This document shows positions 4,747-61,646 of a DNA stretch of 64,000 nt, piece by piece. Numbering within the stretch: the first letter of the stretch is position 1; every line of letters begins with the position of its first letter. The stretch lies in assembly GCA_902577525.1 (NCBI GenBank), contig CACGZG010000006.1:1-64000 (forward strand). Direction: 5' to 3'. The DNA is from an uncultured Pelagibacteraceae bacterium (lineage in GTDB: Bacteria > Pseudomonadota > Alphaproteobacteria > Pelagibacterales > Pelagibacteraceae). Both the position numbers and the translations under genes were made by a program. The notes below the pieces were generated by a model, which was not told the DNA's origin, did not search any database, and saw nothing but the letters and a program-made list of their open reading frames with translations.

Positions 4747-5511
4747 GTGTTTTATATTCTAGCTTTTATTTTAGGAAGTATCTGGGGTAGTTTTTGTAAT
4801 GTTTGTATTTATCGTCTACCATTAGAACAAAATGTAATGAAAGGAAGATCTTTTTGTCCTTCCTGTAAGGAGCAGATAAGATGGTTTGATAATATCCCTT
4901 TTTTTTCTTTTCTATTCTTAAAAGGAAAATGTCGAAGATGCAATATTAAGATAAGTATACAATATTTTATAGTAGAATTAATTTCAGCATTAAGTTTTCT
5001 TTTCATTTTTTACATATACGGAATTTCAATTACTACTTTATTACTTATTATTTTGAGTATTTTTTTTATCATAATATTTTTTATTGACTTAAAGCATTAT
5101 ATAATTCCAAATGAATTAACATTTCCTTTGATGTTTATTGGTTTTGTAAAATCTTTTGATCCAAATTTAAATCAATCTTTATTTCCTAATTATATTAATT
5201 CTTTAATTGGAGGATTGTTTGGTTATGCAATTATTTGGTTAATCATTTTTTTTTATAAAACTTTAAGAAATAAAGAAGGAATGGGGCTTGGTGATGCAAA
5301 ATTAATTGCTGTAGTTGGTTTTTGGTTTGGCTGGTTTAGCATACCTTTTACAATTTTTATTTCCTCAGTTGTTGCTTTAGTTTATTCAATCCCATCATTA
5401 ATGAACAAGAGCAGAGATTTATCCGCACAAATCCCTTTTGGGCCTTTTATAATTATTGGCTGTTTAATTTATGTTATGTTTGCAAATCAAATAAAAAATT
5501 TTTTTCTATAA
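4747..5511 (+). CDS. pilD: prepilin peptidase / N-methyltransferase PilD
   Basis: This inner-membrane aspartyl protease cleaves and N-methylates type IV prepilins. The 254-residue protein has the zinc-binding cysteines C37xxC40 and C62xxC65 in the N-terminal cytoplasmic loop, the first catalytic Asp in FFIDLKHYIIP (D114) and the second in the GxGD motif GLGDAK (D183), with about seven membrane helices. The start is GTG, supported by the conserved opening with SIWGSFCNVCIYRLP. Its likely substrates are the minor pilins encoded at 11.8-14.2 kb. It is convergent with pilY1. Confidence 0.95.
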   Translation: MFYILAFILGSIWGSFCNVCIYRLPLEQNVMKGRSFCPSCKEQIRWFDNIPFFSFLFLKGKCRRCNIKISIQYFIVELISALSFLFIFYIYGISITTLLLIILSIFFIIIFFIDLKHYIIPNELTFPLMFIGFVKSFDPNLNQSLFPNYINSLIGGLFGYAIIWLIIFFYKTLRNKEGMGLGDAKLIAVVGFWFGWFSIPFTIFISSVVALVYSIPSLMNKSRDLSAQIPFGPFIIIGCLIYVMFANQIKNFFL

Positions 5512-5548
5512 CGGATAATTTTTTTTTATTTTAAGATTTTTTGAAAAA

Positions 5549-8500
5549 TTAATAGCCAGATTCTCTCCAACTACCTCTGCTTGTTTCAACTTCTCCAGCA
5601 GCAGCTAAGATTGAGTAGAGTGTCTCAGCATCTTCTTTAGGTCCTGCAACGTTTGCAAATAATTTATCCCCGAAGATTACAAGCTCTGACAAAATACCTT
5701 CTCTTACAAATTCACAATTTTTTCCGTTTGGCACGCCACCTCTAGATAACAGATGAGAGTTATTTGATCCACACTCATCATCTACGACACAAATAAATGC
5801 ATTACCAATGTTACATGGATTAGCTCCTTGAGGAGGTTCATATATTGGAAAGTAAACTTGACCTTTAAATAAAGTAGGTGCAGCTGATAATTTTCTAAAA
5901 GTATTGTTACTATTTTCATTTGGACCTTTGCCGTCTGGTGTATCTAAATGAACTACCCATGCTTGTTGCCCGCTTGAAGGTCCATCATCACAACTTATTT
6001 TACCAGTAGTATCTTTACAGACGACTGCATTATCAATGCTTGCAGCTGCATTCGCCCCTTTGTGTGCCTCGGCTAAAAAATCATCGTCAGTTTCTCTTGG
6101 GACGTGCGCACCATTTAAATGATCAAAATATGGGTAATTTGGATCTTTAACAGCATAAAGAATATTATCCATAAATTTAGAACCGCCACCTATATCATTA
6201 AAGTTTCCTGTCCCACCAAATAACCAAAAATCTCTTGTTGTTTGTCCAATTCCTGCATCCATTGAAAAATAACTGTATCTTTTATTAACTGTGTTAGCAT
6301 CTAATCTAAATAAAGTAGTTTGATCAAAAAGATCTGCATCATTTTTTGTAGAACTTGTTAAATTTAATTTTGTAATTTTTCCTTCAAGATCATTAAAATA
6401 AACCATAGCGCCTCTCCAAGGAATATTAAATGCAGTATCTGGGGTTATAACGACTGCTGAAGCAGGTAAAGAGTTTCCAATATCGCTTCCATTTGGTGTA
6501 TGTTGCCCAGCAACTTTAGTTGCTGCTTGTGTAGTCACAGTTTCGGTTGTACCGTCATCCTTTGTGATTGTTGTTGTTACAGCTTCTCTAGTTACAACTG
6601 TATCTACAATTGTAATTGGACCTCCGTTAGTTGTGGCTCCATAAATAGTTCCAGGTTCAATACCTTCTTCATCATCTCTATCTAAATTAACTATAAATAC
6701 TGCTGAACCAGCACATAAATTTGTAGCACCCATACCCGCTCCCATTACTGCAACATATCTATCTTTGCTTGAATTATTTCTATCAGCAAGCGTTTCTGAT
6801 GGAATTCTAAATATTCTTGGAGCTGACCATGTCTCCCCTAATTGGCTATAATCATATTGTACTGGTATATCAGTAGCTGCAGTGCATGATGTAGCAACTG
6901 TAAACTGATTGGTCGGTGAACTTTCAAGAGGACTACCACCTGCATTATAAGTTTTCTCAGTAGGAAACGTTATTACTAAATTATCGTTTTCATACTCTGC
7001 ACTAGTAAAATCGATTGTTTGTAAAGTTCCGTCAACTCTTTCAGTAACTTTTAATGAAGACTTAGGTACAGTTCCATCGGCGTTTGCTTGAGGTTTTAAA
7101 TCAGAAAATCTAAATTTTGTACCTTTAAAGCACGAAGCTGTTCCTGCTGCATCTGAATGAAATAGACCAGTAGTCGTCATGACGTCTGTATCATTAAATT
7201 GACAGACTGCTATAGCATCTTGATTAGTACAGTCTTGTATTACATCAGGATTATCAGAGCTATCACAGTAAGAGGAATGATCTGGATTTAAAGAGTCATC
7301 ACCTCCATCTGCTGTAAAGGCTGTATCTAAATTTTCACCAGCTTTTATTGCCTCTAATGAGTCTTGAATACTAACAGAACCAGATGAGTAAGGATATGTT
7401 GTAATCTGACCTTCATGGTCAGCCATATAGACAGTACTGTTAATCGCATCATTAAAGACACTAAACATATGTATAGGTCCTAAATTATCTTTTAGTATTG
7501 GATTAGTAACATCTAAAACAGAAAATCCTGCTCCACCTCTTCCATAAGGAACAAATAAAATAGTATGCCAATTTCTTTGATTCTCTAGTTCTCCCCGTTC
7601 ATTAATTCCTCTAATAAAAACATCATGTACTACTGGTGATCCATCAACACCAAAAATAGCATTGGTTCCACCTTTTTTACCATCAATTTTTCCACTGAGA
7701 TCAGCATTCATTAGTGAGGGAAGCAATCCAGCAATGAATGGTGGAATAAAGCCCCACTCCTCTGCACCAGTTTCAGCATTAATAGCATGAAGCACACCAC
7801 TATTCGCGCCTGCATAGATAACGTTTCTTCTTGATGCGTGTTTTGCCACAAAACTTTGATAGTTATTAGTTGCTCTATAATATGCTTCTTCATTAGCACC
7901 AGTAAACTCAATACTTGCATCAGGTGGGCCTACTTCTATCAATTGTGAGTGATAAATATCCCCAAGAACATGACTTCTTACTTCAGTAACATCACAGTCT
8001 CCATCATAATCAAAGTAATCCGTTCCCTTCATAAAATTTATTAATCCTAAAAGATCATCAGATGTTCCATTGTCGCCCACATATCCATTTGTTGCACAGT
8101 AAGAAGTTGCATTATGGTAGTCAGCAATATCAAAACCATATAATTCAAATAATTCAGTTATATCATCTGAGTTGTCTGTGTTAAAGTTATCCCAATTTCC
8201 AAGGTAAGGTGATCCGGGTATCGCACTCCATAAATTTCTTGTATCAGCCGCATCAGCAATTGTAGCTTGTTTTCTAATTTCTACCGATGCATCCCAGTTT
8301 CCAGCTGCATCCATTTCATGAATAACAGTTCCGTCCGCGTTTAAAGTTTTTCTCAAAATTGTTCCTTGCCATTCTCCAAACTGTTCGTAAGAAAACTGTG
8401 CTTGATATAAAGAACCCCCTTCTTGAACAGTAGCTGTGATCGATGGAGCGGTAAATGACAATCGTTCAGCAAGTATTTGTCTGATTTTTGCTGTCAATTG

Positions 8501-10396
8501 AGTTTTTAAAGACTCTGGTGTATCAGCAACTATTGTTGGTTCACAATCAGGGCTGTTTGCGTCTCCCCCTGGACATGATCCAGCTACAGCCATTTCATCA
8601 AAAATTTCCATTCCTCTGGCGTTAATACCTCCGCCATAAGCAACAAATAAAGTTTTAACTGGATTTGTTTTATCTCTTAATTCCTCAATTCTAGGAACGG
8701 CAGAAGCATTGTTTCTCATCATTCCATCACCAATTACGATAACATAATTTAATTGACACTCTGAGTTCTCATCGTAAGCCTCAAAATCATTATTAAAATA
8801 ATCAAGCGCCATAATAGAGTATGCGTTAGCGTCAGTACCCCAAGCTAAACCTTGAGGAATTAGATTGTCTAGAATTCTCGTGTATCCTTCAGCACTTATT
8901 CCTACATTTAAACATGAGTCTCTATTACATTGTAATGATTGTCCGTCTGGATGATCACCATTCCACCCACCGTAATATGTACAACCATCATTAAAATGAC
9001 AGAATCTTCCACCTCTAGCTCCTGTTCTTCGACCACCAGTTTCTCCAGCATTCCAGTGTCCATAACCAAAGTGAGCACCACTGGTTAAAGTTGTGTCACT
9101 TATAATGGCACTCATTGCTTTTTTAACACCAACCCATCTTGATACGACTCCACCACCCATTTGTAAAAGCCAAGAAGTATCTCTATTTTCTGCAGTAAAT
9201 AAATTTTCATTGAAAACATCTATAGTTCCTCTTGTTGTCCCAACTAAAATTCTATCCGATGTTACATGAATACCAATTGGTTGGTTAAATCTAACGGAGT
9301 TAGCTCTAAGAGCTCCAGAAGCTTCTATATTTGCTCCATTATTTCGTCTTCCAGTCCCTGCTCTTGCTAATATTGTATAAGTTGTATTTGTATCAAGCCG
9401 AACTTTTTGAATGACATGTCTTCTTGATGAAGTTATATATAAAATATCATCATCATCAGGTGAAACATCGATACCTACTACGTCTGCTAATTGTGTATCT
9501 AAATTTCCACGATTTACTCTAGTATAAAGTCTGGTGGCCGCGTTATTGGTAATTCGAAAAGCTTCACCATCTCTTTCCATGGTATACCCATATATATGAA
9601 CTCGGCCTAAATATAACATTGAGGCATCACTGTTAACTGCAATTCTCCAAGTAAGCCTACCAAGACGTGCAAATGAATTATTAAGATTTCCTGTAAAAGT
9701 CTGTACACCGCTACTCATGCCTGAATTTAAATTGAATGATACAAATGCTGAAGAATTACCCACTCTACCAGTAACGAACAAAAAGTGTTCGTCTCCTATT
9801 TGTTGATAATCCAATCCTTGAATTGTCAGTCCAAGTTCCAGGTATATCTTGCAATCCTGTCCATCCTCAGAATATCCAACAATTGCTTGATCATCTCTTA
9901 GTTGACGATCGTTAGATCTGAAGAAAAATATATCCGTATTTGTAATTGCTCCATTATCGGTAGTTAATTCTTCTGCAAATCTTAAATCGGCAGTGTGCCG
10001 TGCAACCGTATTTTTTGTTATGGCTCCACCATAACCCATTCCTGTAGATGACAGGGTACATGTGTCTGATGTATTACCAGTATATCTTCCAACATTATCA
10101 TTAAACTCTCTGTTTCTAGTTCCATCAGCATTAAATTTTACTACTCCGTTATTTCTAAACTGTGATGCAAGAATATCTCCATTTGAATCGTAAATTGCAT
10201 TTGGTACATACTGAATGGCATCTCTATTACTCATTCTACGTCTCATACTTGCTGAACTATCAATTAAAATCAGAATATTAGCAGGGACATCTCCCTCTCC
10301 TGAACCAGGAGGAACTGGTTTTGCATCAACTTTAGATACAAATGCAATCTCTAATAAGATGAAAAAGAATAAAAAATATTTTGCAAAATGTTTCAT
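5549..10396 (-). CDS. pilY1: PilY1-type pilus tip adhesin / assembly factor
   Basis: The protein has 1615 residues, including a signal peptide (about 1-25). A von Willebrand A-like domain starts with an intact MIDAS, DSSAS at residues 46-50. A region of propeller-like repeats (about 130-400) may be an insertion in that domain. The VWA part resumes with VIGDG near 550, and the C-terminal half is the PilY1 beta-propeller with Asp-rich calcium-type loops such as DYDGDCD. PilY1 caps the pilus with minor pilins and affects adhesion, retraction and mechanosensing. It is the last gene of the pil operon, 3 bases after the small secreted protein gene. The length exceeds that of Pseudomonas PilY1. Confidence 0.9.
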   Translation of the reverse strand: MKHFAKYFLFFFILLEIAFVSKVDAKPVPPGSGEGDVPANILILIDSSASMRRRMSNRDAIQYVPNAIYDSNGDILASQFRNNGVVKFNADGTRNREFNDNVGRYTGNTSDTCTLSSTGMGYGGAITKNTVARHTADLRFAEELTTDNGAITNTDIFFFRSNDRQLRDDQAIVGYSEDGQDCKIYLELGLTIQGLDYQQIGDEHFLFVTGRVGNSSAFVSFNLNSGMSSGVQTFTGNLNNSFARLGRLTWRIAVNSDASMLYLGRVHIYGYTMERDGEAFRITNNAATRLYTRVNRGNLDTQLADVVGIDVSPDDDDILYITSSRRHVIQKVRLDTNTTYTILARAGTGRRNNGANIEASGALRANSVRFNQPIGIHVTSDRILVGTTRGTIDVFNENLFTAENRDTSWLLQMGGGVVSRWVGVKKAMSAIISDTTLTSGAHFGYGHWNAGETGGRRTGARGGRFCHFNDGCTYYGGWNGDHPDGQSLQCNRDSCLNVGISAEGYTRILDNLIPQGLAWGTDANAYSIMALDYFNNDFEAYDENSECQLNYVIVIGDGMMRNNASAVPRIEELRDKTNPVKTLFVAYGGGINARGMEIFDEMAVAGSCPGGDANSPDCEPTIVADTPESLKTQLTAKIRQILAERLSFTAPSITATVQEGGSLYQAQFSYEQFGEWQGTILRKTLNADGTVIHEMDAAGNWDASVEIRKQATIADAADTRNLWSAIPGSPYLGNWDNFNTDNSDDITELFELYGFDIADYHNATSYCATNGYVGDNGTSDDLLGLINFMKGTDYFDYDGDCDVTEVRSHVLGDIYHSQLIEVGPPDASIEFTGANEEAYYRATNNYQSFVAKHASRRNVIYAGANSGVLHAINAETGAEEWGFIPPFIAGLLPSLMNADLSGKIDGKKGGTNAIFGVDGSPVVHDVFIRGINERGELENQRNWHTILFVPYGRGGAGFSVLDVTNPILKDNLGPIHMFSVFNDAINSTVYMADHEGQITTYPYSSGSVSIQDSLEAIKAGENLDTAFTADGGDDSLNPDHSSYCDSSDNPDVIQDCTNQDAIAVCQFNDTDVMTTTGLFHSDAAGTASCFKGTKFRFSDLKPQANADGTVPKSSLKVTERVDGTLQTIDFTSAEYENDNLVITFPTEKTYNAGGSPLESSPTNQFTVATSCTAATDIPVQYDYSQLGETWSAPRIFRIPSETLADRNNSSKDRYVAVMGAGMGATNLCAGSAVFIVNLDRDDEEGIEPGTIYGATTNGGPITIVDTVVTREAVTTTITKDDGTTETVTTQAATKVAGQHTPNGSDIGNSLPASAVVITPDTAFNIPWRGAMVYFNDLEGKITKLNLTSSTKNDADLFDQTTLFRLDANTVNKRYSYFSMDAGIGQTTRDFWLFGGTGNFNDIGGGSKFMDNILYAVKDPNYPYFDHLNGAHVPRETDDDFLAEAHKGANAAASIDNAVVCKDTTGKISCDDGPSSGQQAWVVHLDTPDGKGPNENSNNTFRKLSAAPTLFKGQVYFPIYEPPQGANPCNIGNAFICVVDDECGSNNSHLLSRGGVPNGKNCEFVREGILSELVIFGDKLFANVAGPKEDAETLYSILAAAGEVETSRGSWRESGY

Positions 10397-10399
10397 AAT

Positions 10400-10912
10400 T
10401 TAATTTACTGCTAAAATAACCTCTTCTCCTATTGTAAAATCTATCAATTCTTCTGTCGAAATATCAAGAGTTTCTATCGTGCCATTGTAATCTTTTGTTT
10501 TTGCATAAAGAATTTTGTCTTGGCCAACACTAATATCTTTATAGCCAAACCAATTTTTATTCTCAACTTCCTTACTCAAATTTCCATAGGTAACTTTGGC
10601 AAATTTATATATTTCATATTCATTTACTCCAACATCCATGGTTTCTAATCGGATCCCAACAATTTTTGATTGATAAACAAAGACATGGATGTAAGAATTT
10701 TCTAGATTACTTTTTGGACAATAATCTGCAGCATAACCCATGTACTGAACAGTGTTCCATTCATCAAAATCTTCCTCTGAATAACCATCAATAATAAAAA
10801 AAGTTTTTTTTGCGCTTGAGACCTTAGTGCCTGTTAATTTAAGTGCATCACAAGCTAAAGAGTTATTAGTGAATAAAATAAAAACAAAAATGATAAGGAA
10901 ATTTTTATTCAT
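10400..10912 (-). CDS. secreted protein of unknown function within the pilin operon
   Basis: I chose the start at the internal ATG (10912), because it gives a typical signal peptide (MNKNFLIIFVFILFTNNSLA) followed at once by Cys. A longer frame would start at 11011 inside pilX. The mature part has about 150 residues and two cysteines, the first residue and one in AADYCPKS, so a disulfide is possible. The SLAC site is a poor lipobox, so a lipoprotein is less likely. I recognise no family. It sits between pilX and pilY1 on the same strand, which suggests a periplasmic or pilus-tip role, by position only. Confidence 0.6.
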   Translation of the reverse strand: MNKNFLIIFVFILFTNNSLACDALKLTGTKVSSAKKTFFIIDGYSEEDFDEWNTVQYMGYAADYCPKSNLENSYIHVFVYQSKIVGIRLETMDVGVNEYEIYKFAKVTYGNLSKEVENKNWFGYKDISVGQDKILYAKTKDYNGTIETLDISTEELIDFTIGEEVILAVN

Positions 10913-10982
10913 AAGAATATTATAAATTTTTGAGTTTATTTTTAAAAGACTCTTTTTATAGAAATTACTTATTTTGAGCATA

Positions 10983-11828
10983 TCAATTTGACACAACAAC
11001 CACAGTTTCAAGGGCTACTAAGATGTCTGGTCTTTTTCCATCAATTTCAGCCCAGCCTTCAGCAGTAAAACCCGAGTTAATATCAGCGCTACTTTTTGAA
11101 TCGCTTTTATCCATCATATAGCCACAGCCATAAATTTTATACGCGGTGCCTGATGATTGTGTATTAGTAGTAGTTTTTTTTAAACTAGCTCCTGCTCCAC
11201 GAAAATTTGCAGTTCCAATATTGACGATAAAATACTCATACCTAAATCTATCCATGTGGGCTTTTTCTTTTTGAATAGTGTCTGCATCAGTTAAATTATC
11301 AAGAGAAGCATCTGAAAAAACTTGTTGTATTAATGATCCAAAGTTTTTATTCACCGCATGGGCTGCAACTGCCAATGTATTTGAATGAGTAGTGCCATCT
11401 ATTTCGACATTACTTTTAGCAATATTTCTGTAACTATTGAAGCACGGAGTTTTTGTAACCACATTTCTGTTAGTGGGTAAATCTCTTCTATCAACATATC
11501 TTGACATTCCTTGAACCGCCGTACTTTTCATTTGCTCGATCATCGAATCCCAACTTGCTCTTTCATCACTAGTCATTCCTGAGGTGTCCTCAGATTCAAC
11601 TGTTGATGTTGAAATCCAGGGACCCATTCTTTGGTTGATTATCCATTTTTCTCCTTCGAGCAATGCAGTCTCAGCTACATAAAAAGTTTGTTGGTATTCA
11701 TCGCTAGAATTATTACTTTGGTGATCAGTTGATGAAATAACAATAAGCGCTCCTCCCATCAATGACATTACAAGTAAAAGTAAAAGTGATAAAACTAATG
11801 CAAATCCTTTTTCATTTTTACGTTTCAT
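10983..11828 (-). CDS. pilX: PilX-type minor pilin
   Basis: The 281-residue protein begins KNEKGFALVLSLLLLLVMS, the positively charged leader, Gly and long hydrophobic helix of PilX/GspK-like minor pilins. The Glu5 usual in major pilins is missing, as is normal for this group. After the helix comes ETALLEGEKW, where PilX proteins commonly carry an AExAL-type motif. The gene lies 2 bases after pilW. With PilV, PilW, FimT and PilY1 it would form the priming and tip complex of the pilus. Confidence 0.82.
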   Translation of the reverse strand: MKRKNEKGFALVLSLLLLLVMSLMGGALIVISSTDHQSNNSSDEYQQTFYVAETALLEGEKWIINQRMGPWISTSTVESEDTSGMTSDERASWDSMIEQMKSTAVQGMSRYVDRRDLPTNRNVVTKTPCFNSYRNIAKSNVEIDGTTHSNTLAVAAHAVNKNFGSLIQQVFSDASLDNLTDADTIQKEKAHMDRFRYEYFIVNIGTANFRGAGASLKKTTTNTQSSGTAYKIYGCGYMMDKSDSKSSADINSGFTAEGWAEIDGKRPDILVALETVVVVSN

Positions 11829-11830
11829 GA

Positions 11831-12751
11831 TTATATCCCACTTCCTATATTTCTTGTGTGGATGGTAACGACAACTGAATCTCTCAATTTAGTATCATCA
11901 AAATTATGTCCTCTGTCTCCCAAACCTTTTACATAACGAGGTTTGCCTGCTGCAGATTTAAATTTATAGAAATTACTTTTTGATCTAAAAGTAATTATTA
12001 AGTCAACTGCTCTTATTTTATAAAGATTATCCCTAGCCGCGGTATCTGAACCAGGACGAGGCAATGGAGAAAGCACTCTACCTTCAGCATCCAGTGGAAC
12101 AAATTCCATATCCACTATGTGATCACGAATTTTTTGTCCAACATAACATTCGGGACAATTATCAACCCAAGTACCACTTTCAGAGTCTATTGGTTGAGAC
12201 CAGCTTCTAAGAGATTTATATGCAGCATACCTTTGTCCATCACCATCTGTAATTGGTGCAGCATAATAGGTAATCTTATATCTCTTATATGGTTGAGTTG
12301 TATCATTTTGATTAAAATCATCATAAACTATATGTATTCTGTCACAACATTTACTGCCTTCGTCTGGGTGACCTTGTGTTTCTATTTTGCCATAAGAACC
12401 TTCCGCTGGTCCTAAAGCACTCTCACCTTTTTCTATAATTATTGGATCATGACTTTCTGCAATGCTAGTATTACCACCTACAAATTCTAAATAACTTCTA
12501 TTAGGTAAACCAAGAGTGTTAGTACCTAACACATATTTAAAACCCGCCATTCTAATGTCTCTCATCATCATTTCCACAATATCTCTACCAGATCGACTAA
12601 TTTTTGCTCTCTCTGTTACCTGGCTATAGCTATTATTAACAACTGTATATGTTGTATAAATTGCTCCCATCATTATCGATGAAATCACAACTCCAATGAG
12701 CATCTCTAAAAGAGTTAAACCTGCAATATTTTTAAATTGATTTTTTTTCAT
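11831..12751 (-). CDS. pilW: PilW-type minor pilin
   Basis: The 306-residue protein has a class III signal, AGLTLLEMLIGVVISS near residues 10-25, with Gly before the cleavage site and Glu at +5, then a long helix ending in RDIVEMMMRDIRMAGF, typical of PilW. The C-terminal domain is beta-rich with cysteine pairs (KCCDR and CPEC) that may form disulfides. It overlaps pilV by 4 bases (ATGA type) and would be processed by PilD. Confidence 0.85.
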   Translation of the reverse strand: MKKNQFKNIAGLTLLEMLIGVVISSIMMGAIYTTYTVVNNSYSQVTERAKISRSGRDIVEMMMRDIRMAGFKYVLGTNTLGLPNRSYLEFVGGNTSIAESHDPIIIEKGESALGPAEGSYGKIETQGHPDEGSKCCDRIHIVYDDFNQNDTTQPYKRYKITYYAAPITDGDGQRYAAYKSLRSWSQPIDSESGTWVDNCPECYVGQKIRDHIVDMEFVPLDAEGRVLSPLPRPGSDTAARDNLYKIRAVDLIITFRSKSNFYKFKSAAGKPRYVKGLGDRGHNFDDTKLRDSVVVTIHTRNIGSGI

Positions 12752-13455
12752 TTTCTTGTGTTGTAATCAGCTTGAAAGTATAAAAACTTTCTTTTTTTCC
12801 CATTGTTTAAATTAACCTGAATTCTTCCAATATACATTCCGTTATCATTAATTCGGGGGTCAATGTAATTTGAACAAGCATCATTCCATCTGCAAATTTT
12901 ATACATTTTTACTTTTTTGATATCTCGATCACCTCTACATTTTAAATAACGATCCTCTCCAAATATTGTCATCCATTTCTGCTCTTTATTTTGTGGACCA
13001 TCTGAAAATTGTGAACTGTAAATACTTGTTGGCGCACTTGAGCTTGGTGAACTTTCTTGTTGTTCTGTTGTACCAGTTGTACCAAGAGCAGCAGTAGCTA
13101 AATTTGACGATCCACATGCTCCCGTAAAAAATTCCACATTATCGTGAGCTAAATGTTCCGTAAATCTTCTTGCAGTTTCTCTTTCTTCCTCATTAATTGT
13201 CACTGTACCATCAATACTTATAGCAACTTTATCTACATTTGGATCTACTCCATAAACAGCATCTTTATAACCAATGATATCTTCTGCAATCATGCTAACT
13301 AAGTAATTAGCTTTAGTTCTCTCTCCAGATGTATCAATTGATTGTACTGAATAATTTACCATTTGAAGTATAGCAATAAAACCAATACCAACAATTGCTG
13401 TTGAAATAAGTCCTTCTAAAATTGTTAGACCTAAAATATTTTTTATTTTTCTCAT
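12748..13455 (-). CDS. pilV: PilV-type minor pilin
   Basis: The 235-residue protein has a prepilin leader and helix, LGLTILEGLISTAIVGIGF, with Glu5 and the GF/LL pattern of PilV. Helix continuation and a GYKDAVYGV segment follow. A Ser/Thr/Pro/Gln-rich linker lies at about residues 122-150, and four cysteines occur in the C-terminal part (two in KICRWNDAC). It is followed by pilW with a 4-base overlap and sits 16 bases after the FimT-like gene. Confidence 0.82.
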   Translation of the reverse strand: MRKIKNILGLTILEGLISTAIVGIGFIAILQMVNYSVQSIDTSGERTKANYLVSMIAEDIIGYKDAVYGVDPNVDKVAISIDGTVTINEEERETARRFTEHLAHDNVEFFTGACGSSNLATAALGTTGTTEQQESSPSSSAPTSIYSSQFSDGPQNKEQKWMTIFGEDRYLKCRGDRDIKKVKMYKICRWNDACSNYIDPRINDNGMYIGRIQVNLNNGKKRKFLYFQADYNTRK

Positions 13456-13471
13456 ATAATTGCAAAACCCA

Positions 13472-14167
13472 TTATTGCAAAACCCACTCTAACGTTTTAC
13501 TGCTCCATTTGTCTAAAGTAATTTCTCCAAATCTAGTCCAATCTAAAGAATACATCAAATTATCATCAGCGTCAGCAGGTTCACCAGATGCGTTGACTCC
13601 ACATGCATTATCACCATCTCTTTTACATATTATTAAACTTTCATCGACTACAGAGTCATTGCCTGTTCCACTGAGTAAATCTCCAGCTCCACTAAACCAC
13701 CTAGCATTTTTAGAAAAACATACCGCAGAATCACCTGCTAAATTGGTAGTGATATCCTCGAATGTTACTGACTGAACTTCAATATCGTTTACCTCTGAGC
13801 CATCTACGTCCCAATAATCTGGTGTAGTCATATCACATCTTGAAGATATAGTTGTGTTCCATGTACTATCACCATCATTAATTTTTTGAGCTAAAGTATC
13901 TGTTTTCATACCTCTAGTGGTAAGAGTAACGTTATCATCATTCACACCAATTAAAACTTGCACAAATGCAAATTGGCCTCTTTGAACCTGAGCATTAATA
14001 CTCTCAAATACTTTTTTTACTTTAAGAGCATCAGTTCTTACCTCTCTACCTTTTTTCCACGATGAAAACTTTGGATAAGCTGAAGCAGATATAACTCCGA
14101 TGATTGCGAGAACAACGATCAACTCTAGTATATTAAAACCTTTAATGTTCTTTTCCGGCACCAGCAT
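13472..14167 (-). CDS. fimT: FimT/GspH-type minor pilin
   Basis: It has the prepilin signal KGFNILELIVVLAIIGVISA with Glu5 and a C-terminal GspH/FimT-like domain. The frame opens at 14188, but the Met codon at 14167 gives a normal short leader (MLVPEKNIKG) and a smaller overlap with pilT (26 instead of 47 bases), so I prefer it (231 residues). FimT-type minor pilins can bind DNA in competent bacteria; whether this one does is unknown. The gene stands between pilT and pilV. Confidence 0.75.
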   Translation of the reverse strand: MLVPEKNIKGFNILELIVVLAIIGVISASAYPKFSSWKKGREVRTDALKVKKVFESINAQVQRGQFAFVQVLIGVNDDNVTLTTRGMKTDTLAQKINDGDSTWNTTISSRCDMTTPDYWDVDGSEVNDIEVQSVTFEDITTNLAGDSAVCFSKNARWFSGAGDLLSGTGNDSVVDESLIICKRDGDNACGVNASGEPADADDNLMYSLDWTRFGEITLDKWSSKTLEWVLQ

Positions 14168-15155
14168 CAATTTTCCCAGCTTTAACAAGTTCTTCTAATG
14201 ATTTCTGCATTGTTATCATTCCTTCTTTAACAGCAGTTTGCATGATGCTTGGGATTTGATGAATTTTTGACTCTCTTATTAGGTTTTGAATTGGGGCTGT
14301 ACACTTCATCACCTCAAAAGCACCACAACGACCTTGGCCGTCTTTAGTTTTTAAAAGTCTTTGAGTAACAACCATCTTTAACGATGTTGAAATTTGTGCT
14401 CGAATTTGAGCTTGTTGTTCGGGTGGAAACACGTCAATAATTCTATTGATAGTATTTGGTGCACCACTAGTGTGTAATGTTCCAAAAACTAAGTGACCTG
14501 TTTCTGCAGCTGTTAAAGCTAATGAAACTGTTTCTAAATCTCTCATCTCACCTACTAGAATTACATCTGGATCTTCTCGAAGTGCTGCTTTTAATGCACT
14601 TGCAAAAGTTTTGGTTTGTTTTCCCACCTCTCTATGAGAGACAATACTTTTTACATCTTTATGAATAAACTCAACTGGGTCTTCAACAGTAATAATGTTT
14701 GCAGTTCTAGTTTTATTAATTTCATTTATGATGGCTGCAAGGGTTGTTGATTTTCCAGATCCTGTTGGGCCTGTAACAAGAACAAGACCTTTATGCATAT
14801 CAATAATATCATATAAAACTTGCGGTAAATCAAACTGTCCCATTTCAGGAATAACACTTTCTACTCTTCTTAATACTGCAGCAGGTCCTGTGATAGTTTT
14901 ATAAAAATTAGCTCTAAATCTTAATCCACTAAGAGTAACTGAAGAGTCTAGCTCATGCGTTTCAGTAAACCTCTTCATTTCAACTTCATTACAATTAGTT
15001 GATAATAAATCTTGAAGATCTTGAGCCTTAACAATTACTTCTGGAATTTTATGAATTTCTCCTGTTTGTCTAAATGCAAGTGGCCATCCACTTCTAATAT
15101 GAAAGTCCGAAATTTTCTTGTTATTTTTAGCTAGCTCTTCTAATTTTTCAAACAT
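14142..15155 (-). CDS. pilT: type IV pilus retraction ATPase PilT
   Basis: This is a 337-residue hexameric cytoplasmic motor that powers pilus retraction. The Walker A motif GPTGSGKST is at residues 129-137, with an Asp box and Walker B in REDPDVILVGEMRD, the His box in HLVFGTLHTSGA and a PilT-specific APIQNLIRE motif (the AIRNLIRE box) near residue 290. This separates it from the extension ATPase PilB. It is the first gene of the minus-strand pilus operon, and its promoter must lie in the 183-base gap to the right. Confidence 0.94.
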   Translation of the reverse strand: MFEKLEELAKNNKKISDFHIRSGWPLAFRQTGEIHKIPEVIVKAQDLQDLLSTNCNEVEMKRFTETHELDSSVTLSGLRFRANFYKTITGPAAVLRRVESVIPEMGQFDLPQVLYDIIDMHKGLVLVTGPTGSGKSTTLAAIINEINKTRTANIITVEDPVEFIHKDVKSIVSHREVGKQTKTFASALKAALREDPDVILVGEMRDLETVSLALTAAETGHLVFGTLHTSGAPNTINRIIDVFPPEQQAQIRAQISTSLKMVVTQRLLKTKDGQGRCGAFEVMKCTAPIQNLIRESKIHQIPSIMQTAVKEGMITMQKSLEELVKAGKIDAGAGKEH

Positions 15156-23045: not shown

Positions 23046-23819
23046 TTATCTTGCTCTTGCACCAGCTGAACTTACTGCAGCAGCCCAGATTACTAGACCG
23101 AATGCAATTTTATTTATAAAGTCAGCTAAGTTGTAAACTACGTTTAATGAGTTAGCGTCTACTCCACCAGTTAGGTAACCAAATACATAACCTAATGGGT
23201 AAATTGCCCAACCTACAGTTACAATCATTCTCATTGCACCGAACGCAGTTACTAGAGCTTTGTTACCGCTCTTAGCAGCAGCTTTTCCAGCTTCACCTGA
23301 GAATACTTCATATAAGATGTAGATCCACCCAGCCATACCGATTACAAAACCAAGTGTAGCGTTGATGTATCCAGCTTCTCCTAAGTATCCACCGATTAAC
23401 ATTACTAATGAACCAATTAACAATCTCCAGAAAATTCCAGAGTTTGCTTTTCTTACAGCTACTAGAATTAAGTAAAACTCTATCATCTGTAGTGGCACAG
23501 TAATTAACCAGTCAATATATCTGTATACTGTTGGTGAATCGCCTGTCATCACCCATACTTCTCTCATGTACATGTAATGGATGAATGCAATACCAGTTAC
23601 AAGACCTGCAACAGTTACTGACGTTTTCCAGCCAGGAGCAACAGTGTTTCTTTCCATAAAAAAGAAAGCTGTAGCAGCCAACATACCCATTGAGATTATC
23701 CAAAAAGATATCCCAACAAAGTCATCTTGAGCTAACATTGTAGCAGATGCTGCGTTTGCTATACCAGTTACACCCAATAGGGCTACAACTGTAAGAGCAA
23801 ACAATTTAAGTTTTTTCAT
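23046..23819 (-). CDS. proteorhodopsin, blue-absorbing type proton pump
   Basis: This 257-residue light-driven proton pump has a signal-like N-terminus (1-22) and seven helices. The proton acceptor and donor form the DTE motif, D103, T107 and E114 in YIDWLITVPLQMIEFY. H81 in AFIHYM matches the conserved His partner of the acceptor, and K237 in FINKIAF binds retinal by Schiff base. The spectral-tuning position (105 in the reference protein) is Gln111, which is known to give blue absorption. A good ribosome-binding site (GAGGGAG) precedes the ATG, and a strong terminator follows. Codons are more GC-rich than in the neighbours, consistent with high expression. No retinal-synthesis gene is in the window. 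Confidence 0.97.
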   Translation of the reverse strand: MKKLKLFALTVVALLGVTGIANAASATMLAQDDFVGISFWIISMGMLAATAFFFMERNTVAPGWKTSVTVAGLVTGIAFIHYMYMREVWVMTGDSPTVYRYIDWLITVPLQMIEFYLILVAVRKANSGIFWRLLIGSLVMLIGGYLGEAGYINATLGFVIGMAGWIYILYEVFSGEAGKAAAKSGNKALVTAFGAMRMIVTVGWAIYPLGYVFGYLTGGVDANSLNVVYNLADFINKIAFGLVIWAAAVSSAGARAR

Positions 23820-59697: not shown

Positions 59698-60372
59698 TTA
59701 AATTATTGTTAAAAATCTTTTTGAAAAATTTTCAAGCTTTTGAGAATATTTTATAGAATCATTGTTAAATTTATTATATGCAACAACTGCTGGGATTGCT
59801 GCTAGCAAGCCTAATGCTGTTGCAAAAAGTGCTTCTGCAATACCTGGTGCTACAATGGCTAAACTAGTATTTCTTGAAATTGCAATAGACTGAAATGAAT
59901 TCATTATACCCCAAACTGTTCCAAATAAACCAATAAAAGGAGCAGTCGAACCTACTGTTGCTAAAAATGTAAATCCTTTACTAATTTTTGACATTTGTTT
60001 TTCAATTCCTGTCTCTAACATGGTTGTCATTCTAATATTAAGATCACTCTTAGATCTTCTTTTTAATAAACTTTGCATTGCATCTTTAAATACCAGAGCC
60101 ATGGGATCCTCTATGTTAGTAGGAAGATTATTGTAAAATGTTTCAGCTGATTTAGAATTCCAAAATTTTGTCTCAAATTCTTCTGTAGATTGATTTATTT
60201 TTTTAAATAATCTTAATTTTTCTATAATTACCGCCCAAGAGTAAATTGAGCAGGCAATTAACAAAACAATTACAGATTTAACTATTATATCTGCCCTTAT
60301 GAATAAATTCATTAATGAAAAATCAGCACTAGATGCTAAGCCTACTGCTTGTGTCGATATATCAGCTTCCAT
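59698..60372 (-). CDS. tolQ: proton channel subunit TolQ (ExbB/MotA family)
   Basis: The 224-residue protein has three membrane helices (about 27-47, 130-152 and 168-195). The last two include TVGSTAPFIGLFGTVWGIMN and PGIAEALFATALGLLAAIPA, both hallmark TolQ/ExbB segments. It is the first gene of the tol operon; the ybgC gene that often precedes it is absent. Confidence 0.96.
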   Translation of the reverse strand: MEADISTQAVGLASSADFSLMNLFIRADIIVKSVIVLLIACSIYSWAVIIEKLRLFKKINQSTEEFETKFWNSKSAETFYNNLPTNIEDPMALVFKDAMQSLLKRRSKSDLNIRMTTMLETGIEKQMSKISKGFTFLATVGSTAPFIGLFGTVWGIMNSFQSIAISRNTSLAIVAPGIAEALFATALGLLAAIPAVVAYNKFNNDSIKYSQKLENFSKRFLTII

Positions 60373-60425: not shown

Positions 60426-60920
60426 TCATTCATCTGTTTTGTAAGTTTCATTATAAAAACTTGCAATTAAAATGGCATCAGCTTTATTAGAGTCCTTTTT
60501 TTTTGCTAATTCTTTAGAAAAATAAGGAAATATTTCAATTGCTCTTGTCCTACTCGCATCTTTTTCTGAATTAATTAAATTAAAATATTTTTTCCATTTT
60601 GCAGGTCTTACAAAATACATAGATAATTGCATTGCTGAACATATTCCTTTTAAGATACCAAATGATTGTCCAAAATTAAACATACTGGTCACTCCTTGCC
60701 CAGGCATAGCGGTTACATGTTCTATAACAACTCTTATATTGTGTTTTTCAATACCTATAATTCTTGAAGAAATTTCATTAAAGATTTGTGATCCATTTAC
60801 TTGTCTTTTGTTTTTTTTACCATCAGTCATGGTTGGCATTTCGATAACATCAAAAATTTTACCTTCCTTTAAAAAACAAATTGAGCCAGATATTCCTGGG
60901 TCTATACCTATAATAAACAT
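60426..60920 (-). CDS. phage-type RuvC-like Holliday junction nuclease
   Basis: The 164-residue RNase H-fold protein has acidic residues that fit the catalytic set: D7 in IGIDPG, E67 in VVIEHVTAMPGQG, and D143 and D148 in DSNKADAILIA. The stretch AMPGQGVTSMFNFGQSFGI is typical of RuvC-like proteins common in phages and differs from the classical RuvC sequence. It stands between yebC and tolQ, exactly where alphaproteobacteria usually have ruvC-ruvA-ruvB, but ruvA and ruvB are not here. A role in resolving junctions is likely, but its cutting specificity is unknown. It overlaps nothing and is followed by a 53-base gap before tolQ. Confidence 0.75.
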   Translation of the reverse strand: MFIIGIDPGISGSICFLKEGKIFDVIEMPTMTDGKKNKRQVNGSQIFNEISSRIIGIEKHNIRVVIEHVTAMPGQGVTSMFNFGQSFGILKGICSAMQLSMYFVRPAKWKKYFNLINSEKDASRTRAIEIFPYFSKELAKKKDSNKADAILIASFYNETYKTDE

Positions 60921-60923
60921 ATT

Positions 60924-61646
60924 TTAAATCTTAAATTTAGCATTAGAAAAAATATTCTGAACATCATCATCCTCTTCTAAACTCTCAAAAAAATCAATAA
61001 AATGATCTTGTCTCTCTTTTGGAATTTCTACACTGTTTAAAGGTATCCACTCAATTTTTGTTGATAAAAAATTATTAATCTTTTTTTCAAGTTCCTTTTT
61101 AATATTATAAATTTCGTTGATCGGGCAATGAATTTCATGAAAATCATTAATTGAATTACAATCATTTGCTCCAGAATCGATTGCAAGCTCAAAAATATCA
61201 TCTTCGGAAATTTCTTTCTTATCAATCTTAATAACACCTAATTGATTAAAATTATGTGATGCTGAACCTTGAGAGCCTAATGAGCCTCCAGCTTTTTGAA
61301 ATATAGTTCTAATGTTTGAAGCTGTTCTATTTTTATTATCAGTTAATGTTTCCACAATAACTGCAACTTTTTCAGGTCCAAATCCCTCATATCTTAAATT
61401 TTCAAAATTTGTTTCAGTATTAGCTGAAGATTTGCTTATTGCCCTCTCAATATTATCCTTTGGCATATTGGCAGATCTTGCTGCTTGAATGGCTGATCGC
61501 AATCTTGGATTAATATCGGGATCTTTATCTCCAAGTTTTGCTGCGGCTGTAATTTCTTTTGATATTTTAGAAAAAACTTTAGATCTTTTTTTGTCTACTT
61601 TACTTTTTTTATGTTTTATACCAGCCCAATGAGAATGTCCTGCCAT
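60924..61646 (-). CDS. yebC: YebC/PmpR/TACO1 family protein
   Basis: The 240-residue protein opens with the invariant MAGHSHWAGIKHKKSKVDKK and contains SANMPKDNIERAI and YEGFGPEKVAVIVE. Members are described as transcription regulators and, more recently, as helpers of translation through difficult sequences. The gene lies 3 bases upstream of the RuvC-like gene, the usual yebC-ruvC neighbourhood. Confidence 0.95.
   Translation of the reverse strand: MAGHSHWAGIKHKKSKVDKKRSKVFSKISKEITAAAKLGDKDPDINPRLRSAIQAARSANMPKDNIERAISKSSANTETNFENLRYEGFGPEKVAVIVETLTDNKNRTASNIRTIFQKAGGSLGSQGSASHNFNQLGVIKIDKKEISEDDIFELAIDSGANDCNSINDFHEIHCPINEIYNIKKELEKKINNFLSTKIEWIPLNSVEIPKERQDHFIDFFESLEEDDDVQNIFSNAKFKI

Follow-up and report, generated by a model that had tools for sequence, protein, structure and literature searches.

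A single small gene between yebC and tolQ is very probably the housekeeping Holliday junction resolvase of SAR11, the ocean's most abundant bacteria, where it would have replaced ruvC-ruvA-ruvB at their own locus and would work with RecG or with spontaneous branch migration, and no RuvAB. The gene was analysed in a 64,000-nucleotide stretch of DNA (hereafter the window) from an uncultured Pelagibacteraceae genome, G000, which comprises 1.14 Mb in 30 contigs and is 90% complete. Its family, its locus, its inheritance and the recombination genes found and missing around it are described below.

The yebC-tolQ slot and its protein

The usual alphaproteobacterial gene order is yebC-ruvC-ruvA-ruvB-ybgC-tolQ, where the three ruv genes encode the standard machinery for migrating and cleaving Holliday junctions in recombination. 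The yebC-tolQ interval of the window holds a single ORF, as a sequence-only reading of this DNA had claimed; ybgC is gone as well (Table 1). The ORF is intact with an ATG start, begins 3 bp past the yebC stop and ends 53 bp before tolQ. Upstream, Pfam identifies yebC, a YmdB-like phosphoesterase and a 5-FTHF cyclo-ligase, and by reading of the ORFs tolR, tolA, tolB and pal come after tolQ. In one relative (locus L331) ruvC, ruvA and ruvB are adjacent, and three genera (g5, g6 and g7; loci L209-L212) keep the order yebC-resolvase-ybgC-tolQ. The resolvase therefore occupies the exact place of ruvC-ruvA-ruvB, which bears out the proposed displacement at the native locus.

Table 1. Coordinates of the features discussed; positions are those of the window unless a contig or locus is named
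Feature	Position	Strand	Remarks
Phage/MOC1-type RuvC-like Holliday junction resolvase gene	60426..60920	(-)	164 aa, coordinates include stop
yebC, left border of slot	60924..61646	(-)	PF01709, E 2.4e-52
tolQ, right border of slot	59698..60372	(-)	PF01618, E 3.9e-36
Catalytic Asp7 codon, DPG motif (NtMOC1 D116, RuvC D7)	60900..60902	(-)	invariant in alignment A1
Catalytic Glu67 codon (NtMOC1 E175)	60720..60722	(-)	invariant in all 31 rows of alignment A2
AMPGQGVTSMF block, residues 71-81	60678..60710	(-)	on MOC1 base-recognition loop, read from alignment A2
Asp143 to Asp148 codons, C-terminal acidic pair	60477..60494	(-)	Asp148 = NtMOC1 E258; Asp143 = NtMOC1 D253
Slot gene of the sister family f2	L213:2318-2698, L214:1027-1398, L220:2317-2700, further loci L223-L246		between yebC and tolQ
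recG of G000	C3:38512-40368		full length, 637 bits
Type IV pilus-like cluster	4747-15155		read from ORFs
Large PilY1-like protein	5549-10396		in the pilus-like cluster
Product reading as proteorhodopsin	23046-23819

The slot protein is an RNase H-fold nuclease of the phage/MOC1 type and not a classical RuvC. It matches the PHROG profile phrog_1770, 'Holliday junction resolvase', over its full length (E 2.7e-36, 126 bits; residues 1-161 on model positions 4-152 of 158). The Pfam RuvC family (PF02075) gives no match to it, and the NCBIfam RuvC model gives 13.4 bits against a cut-off of 163, below the classical RuvC threshold. The best phmmer match among solved structures is chloroplast NtMOC1 (6kvn, E 5.7e-14). 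An AlphaFold2 model of the monomer, for which sequences from the window, from SAR11 and from viral contigs were aligned, has a pLDDT of 91.4 and a pTM of 0.88; with this model Foldseek ranks MOC1 first (TM about 0.84-0.87, rmsd about 1.9 Å), while classical RuvC is weaker (TM 0.52-0.72).

All 123 SAR11 copies compared (123/123) retain D7, E67, D143 and D148. The catalytic tetrad of NtMOC1 consists of D116, D118, E175 and E258, and its Y180 intercalates while D183 reads cytosine (PMC7078210). The tetrad is incomplete in the slot protein, where D7, E67 and D148 match D116, E175 and E258. Since Gly9, as in RuvC, stands at the position of D118, the active site differs from that of MOC1. In alignment A2, read with the NtMOC1 study (PMC7078210), Met72 aligns with Y180 and Gln75 with D183, so that this base-recognition loop would be expected to give a cleavage preference other than the CC of MOC1.

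Although MOC1 (6kvn, 6jrf and 8kfr) is the best match in both sequence and fold among solved structures, the slot protein is about 25-30% identical to it, has DPG rather than DPD and lacks a transit peptide. With the PHROG 1770 phage resolvases (Salmonella phage epsilon15, Planktothrix phage PaV-LD) it shares an AMPGQGV-type block and 38-48% identity; unlike these, the SAR11 copy is fixed on a bacterial chromosome, where it forms an operon-like series with yebC and tolQRA. It has the RNase H fold, the RuvC-type acidic active site and the chromosomal slot of classical RuvC, but falls below every curated cut-off for that family, and its genome provides no RuvA or RuvB partner. The sequence-only reading had taken the AMPGQGVTSMF protein to be phage-RuvC-like and not classical. 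This holds as to type, with the refinement that among solved structures the chloroplast MOC1 proteins come nearest.

Distribution in SAR11 and the sister family

A single-sequence search found the gene in 28 of 61 near relatives, and a profile search covering 198 genomes from the order found it in 164, every one belonging to the same family as the window (f1). By the profile search each of the 11 single-contig genomes has exactly one copy; the nine f1 genomes with no profile match are all drafts in at least 20 contigs. In a public genome collection, the 80 top-ranked contigs with relatives bear the names Pelagibacteraceae, Pelagibacterales or Candidatus Pelagibacter, which places the genome in SAR11. 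Of 80 loci on genome contigs, 79 have yebC upstream and 79 have tolQ downstream, the contig ending too early in the others, and both flanks are present at every locus whose contig ends permit checking.

Pairwise resolvase distances correlate with the distances of both flanking genes (Mantel r = 0.889 for yebC and 0.807 for tolQ), and the median dN/dS is 0.083 for the resolvase, 0.089 for yebC and 0.094 for tolQ. The wide carriage in relatives, the constant flanks and the low dN/dS show that this is not a chance ORF. Flank-like dN/dS, together with distances that follow those of the neighbours, indicates a vertically inherited, selected gene and not a prophage passenger. Encoding by a phage or prophage was not found; in all checked loci the resolvase is fixed between yebC and tolQ and co-inherited with them. 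The resolvase is a core SAR11 gene under purifying selection.

The sister family (f2) has no homologue of the window resolvase in single-sequence or profile searches, and neither RuvB nor RuvC. Reading of its yebC loci revealed a different gene in the yebC-tolQ slot, a second DISPLACEMENT, encoding about 126 aa. All 24 f2 genomes searched carry this gene, against 0 of 21 f1 genomes and 0 of 23 other alphaproteobacteria; in every case it follows yebC and precedes tolQ, and the E-D-E-K catalytic residues are found in 24/24. Profile matches tie the protein to the phage PD-(D/E)XK endonuclease family PF24608 (31-33 bits, cut-off 27) and to PHROG 244, whose label is Holliday junction resolvase (lowest E 2.7e-21). 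Its identity is 51% to a protein of Roseobacter phage CRP-810 with the Holliday junction resolvase annotation and up to 58% to marine viral contigs. Foldseek with a viral relative of the protein returned weak Hjc matches alone (E about 0.02), so its fold assignment comes from the motif and the Pfam and PHROG matches.

This PHROG 244/PF24608 resolvase, distantly of Hjc type, resembles that of f1 in its yebC-tolQ slot and in the absence of RuvABC, but differs from it in fold class and in its E-D-ExK catalytic motif, and the two have no homology. Across the two sister families, one chromosomal slot is filled by two unrelated phage-type resolvases, both without RuvAB. Either ruvC may have been displaced in two independent events, or ruvCAB may have been displaced once, after which one resolvase was exchanged for another.

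Origin and role of the slot gene

A fully supported split in a 50-row tree sets classical RuvC apart from the sequences of SAR11, phages and MOC1. SAR11 rows are not nested inside phage rows, and the RuvC outgroup attaches between SAR11 and the phages (78/97). With the outgroup attached beside SAR11, the tree does not prove the implied movement from phage to bacterium; an outgroup branch of about 10 changes per site also makes the root unreliable. An AU test found SAR11 as a single clade compatible (p-AU 0.57). Another AU test, of SAR11 plus classical RuvC, was set aside as uninformative, for it merely restates the attachment of the long outgroup branch.

Phage capture appears the likelier history, the direction being suggested by a phage-dominated family, by the absence of the gene from other alphaproteobacteria (none of the 40 searched, the single weak match being a classical RuvC) and by the parallel case in f2. 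Among viral sequences no near phage donor was found, the closest sharing only about 45-48% identity with the slot protein. The gene might instead belong to an ancient cellular resolvase lineage, which SAR11 or its ancestor kept or got from cells and which phages took from such bacteria; it would still be the resolvase of the cell. The outgroup joining the SAR11 side, the compatibility of one SAR11 clade and the lack of a close donor agree with such a lineage. We nevertheless think it unlikely, as the profile family is a phage family, other alphaproteobacteria do not carry the gene, the f2 slot holds an unrelated phage-type resolvase, and the outgroup position depends on that long branch.

In the same tree NtMOC1 and ZmMOC1 group with Planktothrix phage PaV-LD (L035) and viral contig L121 (92/89, not fully supported), which hints at a possible origin of MOC1 in a cyanobacterial phage.

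Capture from a phage could also have produced a domesticated nuclease with some other job, such as debranching, decatenation or attack on invading DNA, with junctions left to RuvX/YqgF or to RecG with topoisomerases. Phage relatives of RuvC can be promiscuous on branched DNA (PMC3864405), but such a job fits poorly with the ruvC slot position, the near-universal retention and the purifying selection. The f2 slot is moreover filled by another resolvase, a sign that what the cell needs from this locus is junction resolution as such, and we regard a different job as quite improbable. The preferred reading thus stays with a housekeeping junction resolvase, to which RuvX/YqgF could add a contribution.

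Branch migration and the recombination pathway

RuvB_C was found in none of 61 SAR11 genomes and in 267 of 289 alphaproteobacteria; classical RuvC was likewise found in 0/61 SAR11 genomes. RuvA above cut-off was found in 0/20 SAR11 genomes, 11 of them single-contig, and in all three RuvB-positive alphaproteobacteria searched as controls. RadA/Sms, the third bacterial branch-migration factor, is absent from the same 20 genomes and present in the same three controls. Incomplete assembly has next to no chance of explaining the missing ruvABC, even with G000 at its stated completeness and contig number, because relatives with closed or 99-100% complete genomes also lack RuvA, RuvB and/or RuvC, and the assembly covers the native slot and shows a gene in it. 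The sequence-only reading had inferred loss of the RuvAB motor and had named, as findings that would speak against it, ruvA and ruvB elsewhere in the genome and a place for the protein inside classical RuvC. The inference is supported: both genes are absent, in closed relatives too, and the tree keeps classical RuvC apart.

Several candidate matches were rejected. RuvB_N matches in G000, two of them just over cut-off, read as ClpX, DnaX and Lon, and RuvB_C finds nothing there; the RuvB_N match inside the window is FtsH, not RuvB. Weak SAR11 matches to RuvA were dismissed as small ones of HhH type (18 bits against a cut-off of 85, model positions 109-140). RadA matches of 30-48 bits were judged by model range and ORF size to be cross-matches of Lon and RecA/DnaB-like proteins.

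RuvB_C is also absent from other small-genome alphaproteobacteria, namely G252 and G441 (family f27), G266, G371 and G451 (f41), G361 (f122), G392 (f130) and G405 (f92), and in G252, G266 and G405 there is no RuvA over cut-off and no RadA. That RuvB-minus alphaproteobacteria outside SAR11 share the SAR11 resolvases is unsupported, none of them matching A2 or A3; as neither SAR11 resolvase occurs in them, they may have other replacements.

Full-length RecG is encoded in G000 and, with a single exception, in every SAR11 genome searched. That exception is the sister-family genome G043 (92% complete), where the absence is probably an assembly gap. With RuvA, RuvB and RadA absent and RecG present, RecG is the only dedicated junction translocase found, and it is the likely answer to the question, raised by the sequence-only reading, of how junctions are moved in this cell. 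In five f2 genomes (G037, G038, G039, G040 and G045) a match to an Mfd-like helicase domain (about 374-386 bits) adjoins recG. The ORF is short, about 790-804 aa where other alphaproteobacteria have about 1010-1175 aa, and among the matches listed for f1 there is no Mfd-like one of similar strength; Mfd seems to have been shortened in f2 and lost in f1.

The best reading of these results would be a minimal, chloroplast-like pathway of RecA, RecG and a phage-type resolvase. RecA would make the Holliday junction, RecG or thermal (spontaneous) migration would move it instead of RuvAB, and a dimer of the phage-type nuclease would open the junction and nick it symmetrically with bound metal, without a RuvAB scaffold. 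Chloroplasts are not known to have RuvAB. MOC1 works without it in an organelle using RecA and RecG, and plant organelles are described as having RECA and RECG (PMC8159992).

RuvAB ranks among the most conserved bacterial recombination genes, and a survey of 117 genomes found it missing from just two that bear RecA (PMC1193525). Firmicutes, in which RecU takes the place of RuvC, are a known case of a resolvase displaced by a non-orthologous one (PMC1193525). One table includes a 'putative Holliday junction resolvase' in the SAR11 core without commenting on it (PMC3686209); the entry may be the slot gene or YqgF. In the literature searched we found no paper discussing RuvC, RuvAB or a resolvase of SAR11, nor a description of a major free-living clade in which RuvAB loss goes together with a slot filled twice by phage-type resolvases.

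The recombination-to-mutation ratio of SAR11 (r/m 63) is among the highest reported (PMC4053759), and a 2025 study tied its promiscuous recombination to the loss of RecBCD, RecF and MutSL, the main text leaving ruv genes and resolvases unmentioned (PMC12374537). We suggest, tentatively and with more doubt than confidence, that RuvABC was replaced twice at one locus by unrelated phage-type resolvases and that a RuvAB-free pathway of RecA, RecG and such a resolvase, with relaxed demands on junction or sequence, partly explains this frequent and promiscuous recombination.

The window also carries a type IV pilus-like cluster, with prepilin peptidase-like and pseudopilin-like proteins, a PilT-like ATPase and a large PilY1-like protein (Table 1). 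It is possibly a DNA uptake machinery relevant to SAR11 recombination. A further window product reads as proteorhodopsin, which is usual for SAR11.

The loss of RuvABC and RadA and the two unrelated slot resolvases complete the post-synaptic half of the SAR11 recombination picture, with a solution that parallels the RecA, RecG and MOC1 of chloroplasts. The question of what minimal machinery serves frequent recombination becomes testable through one small protein.
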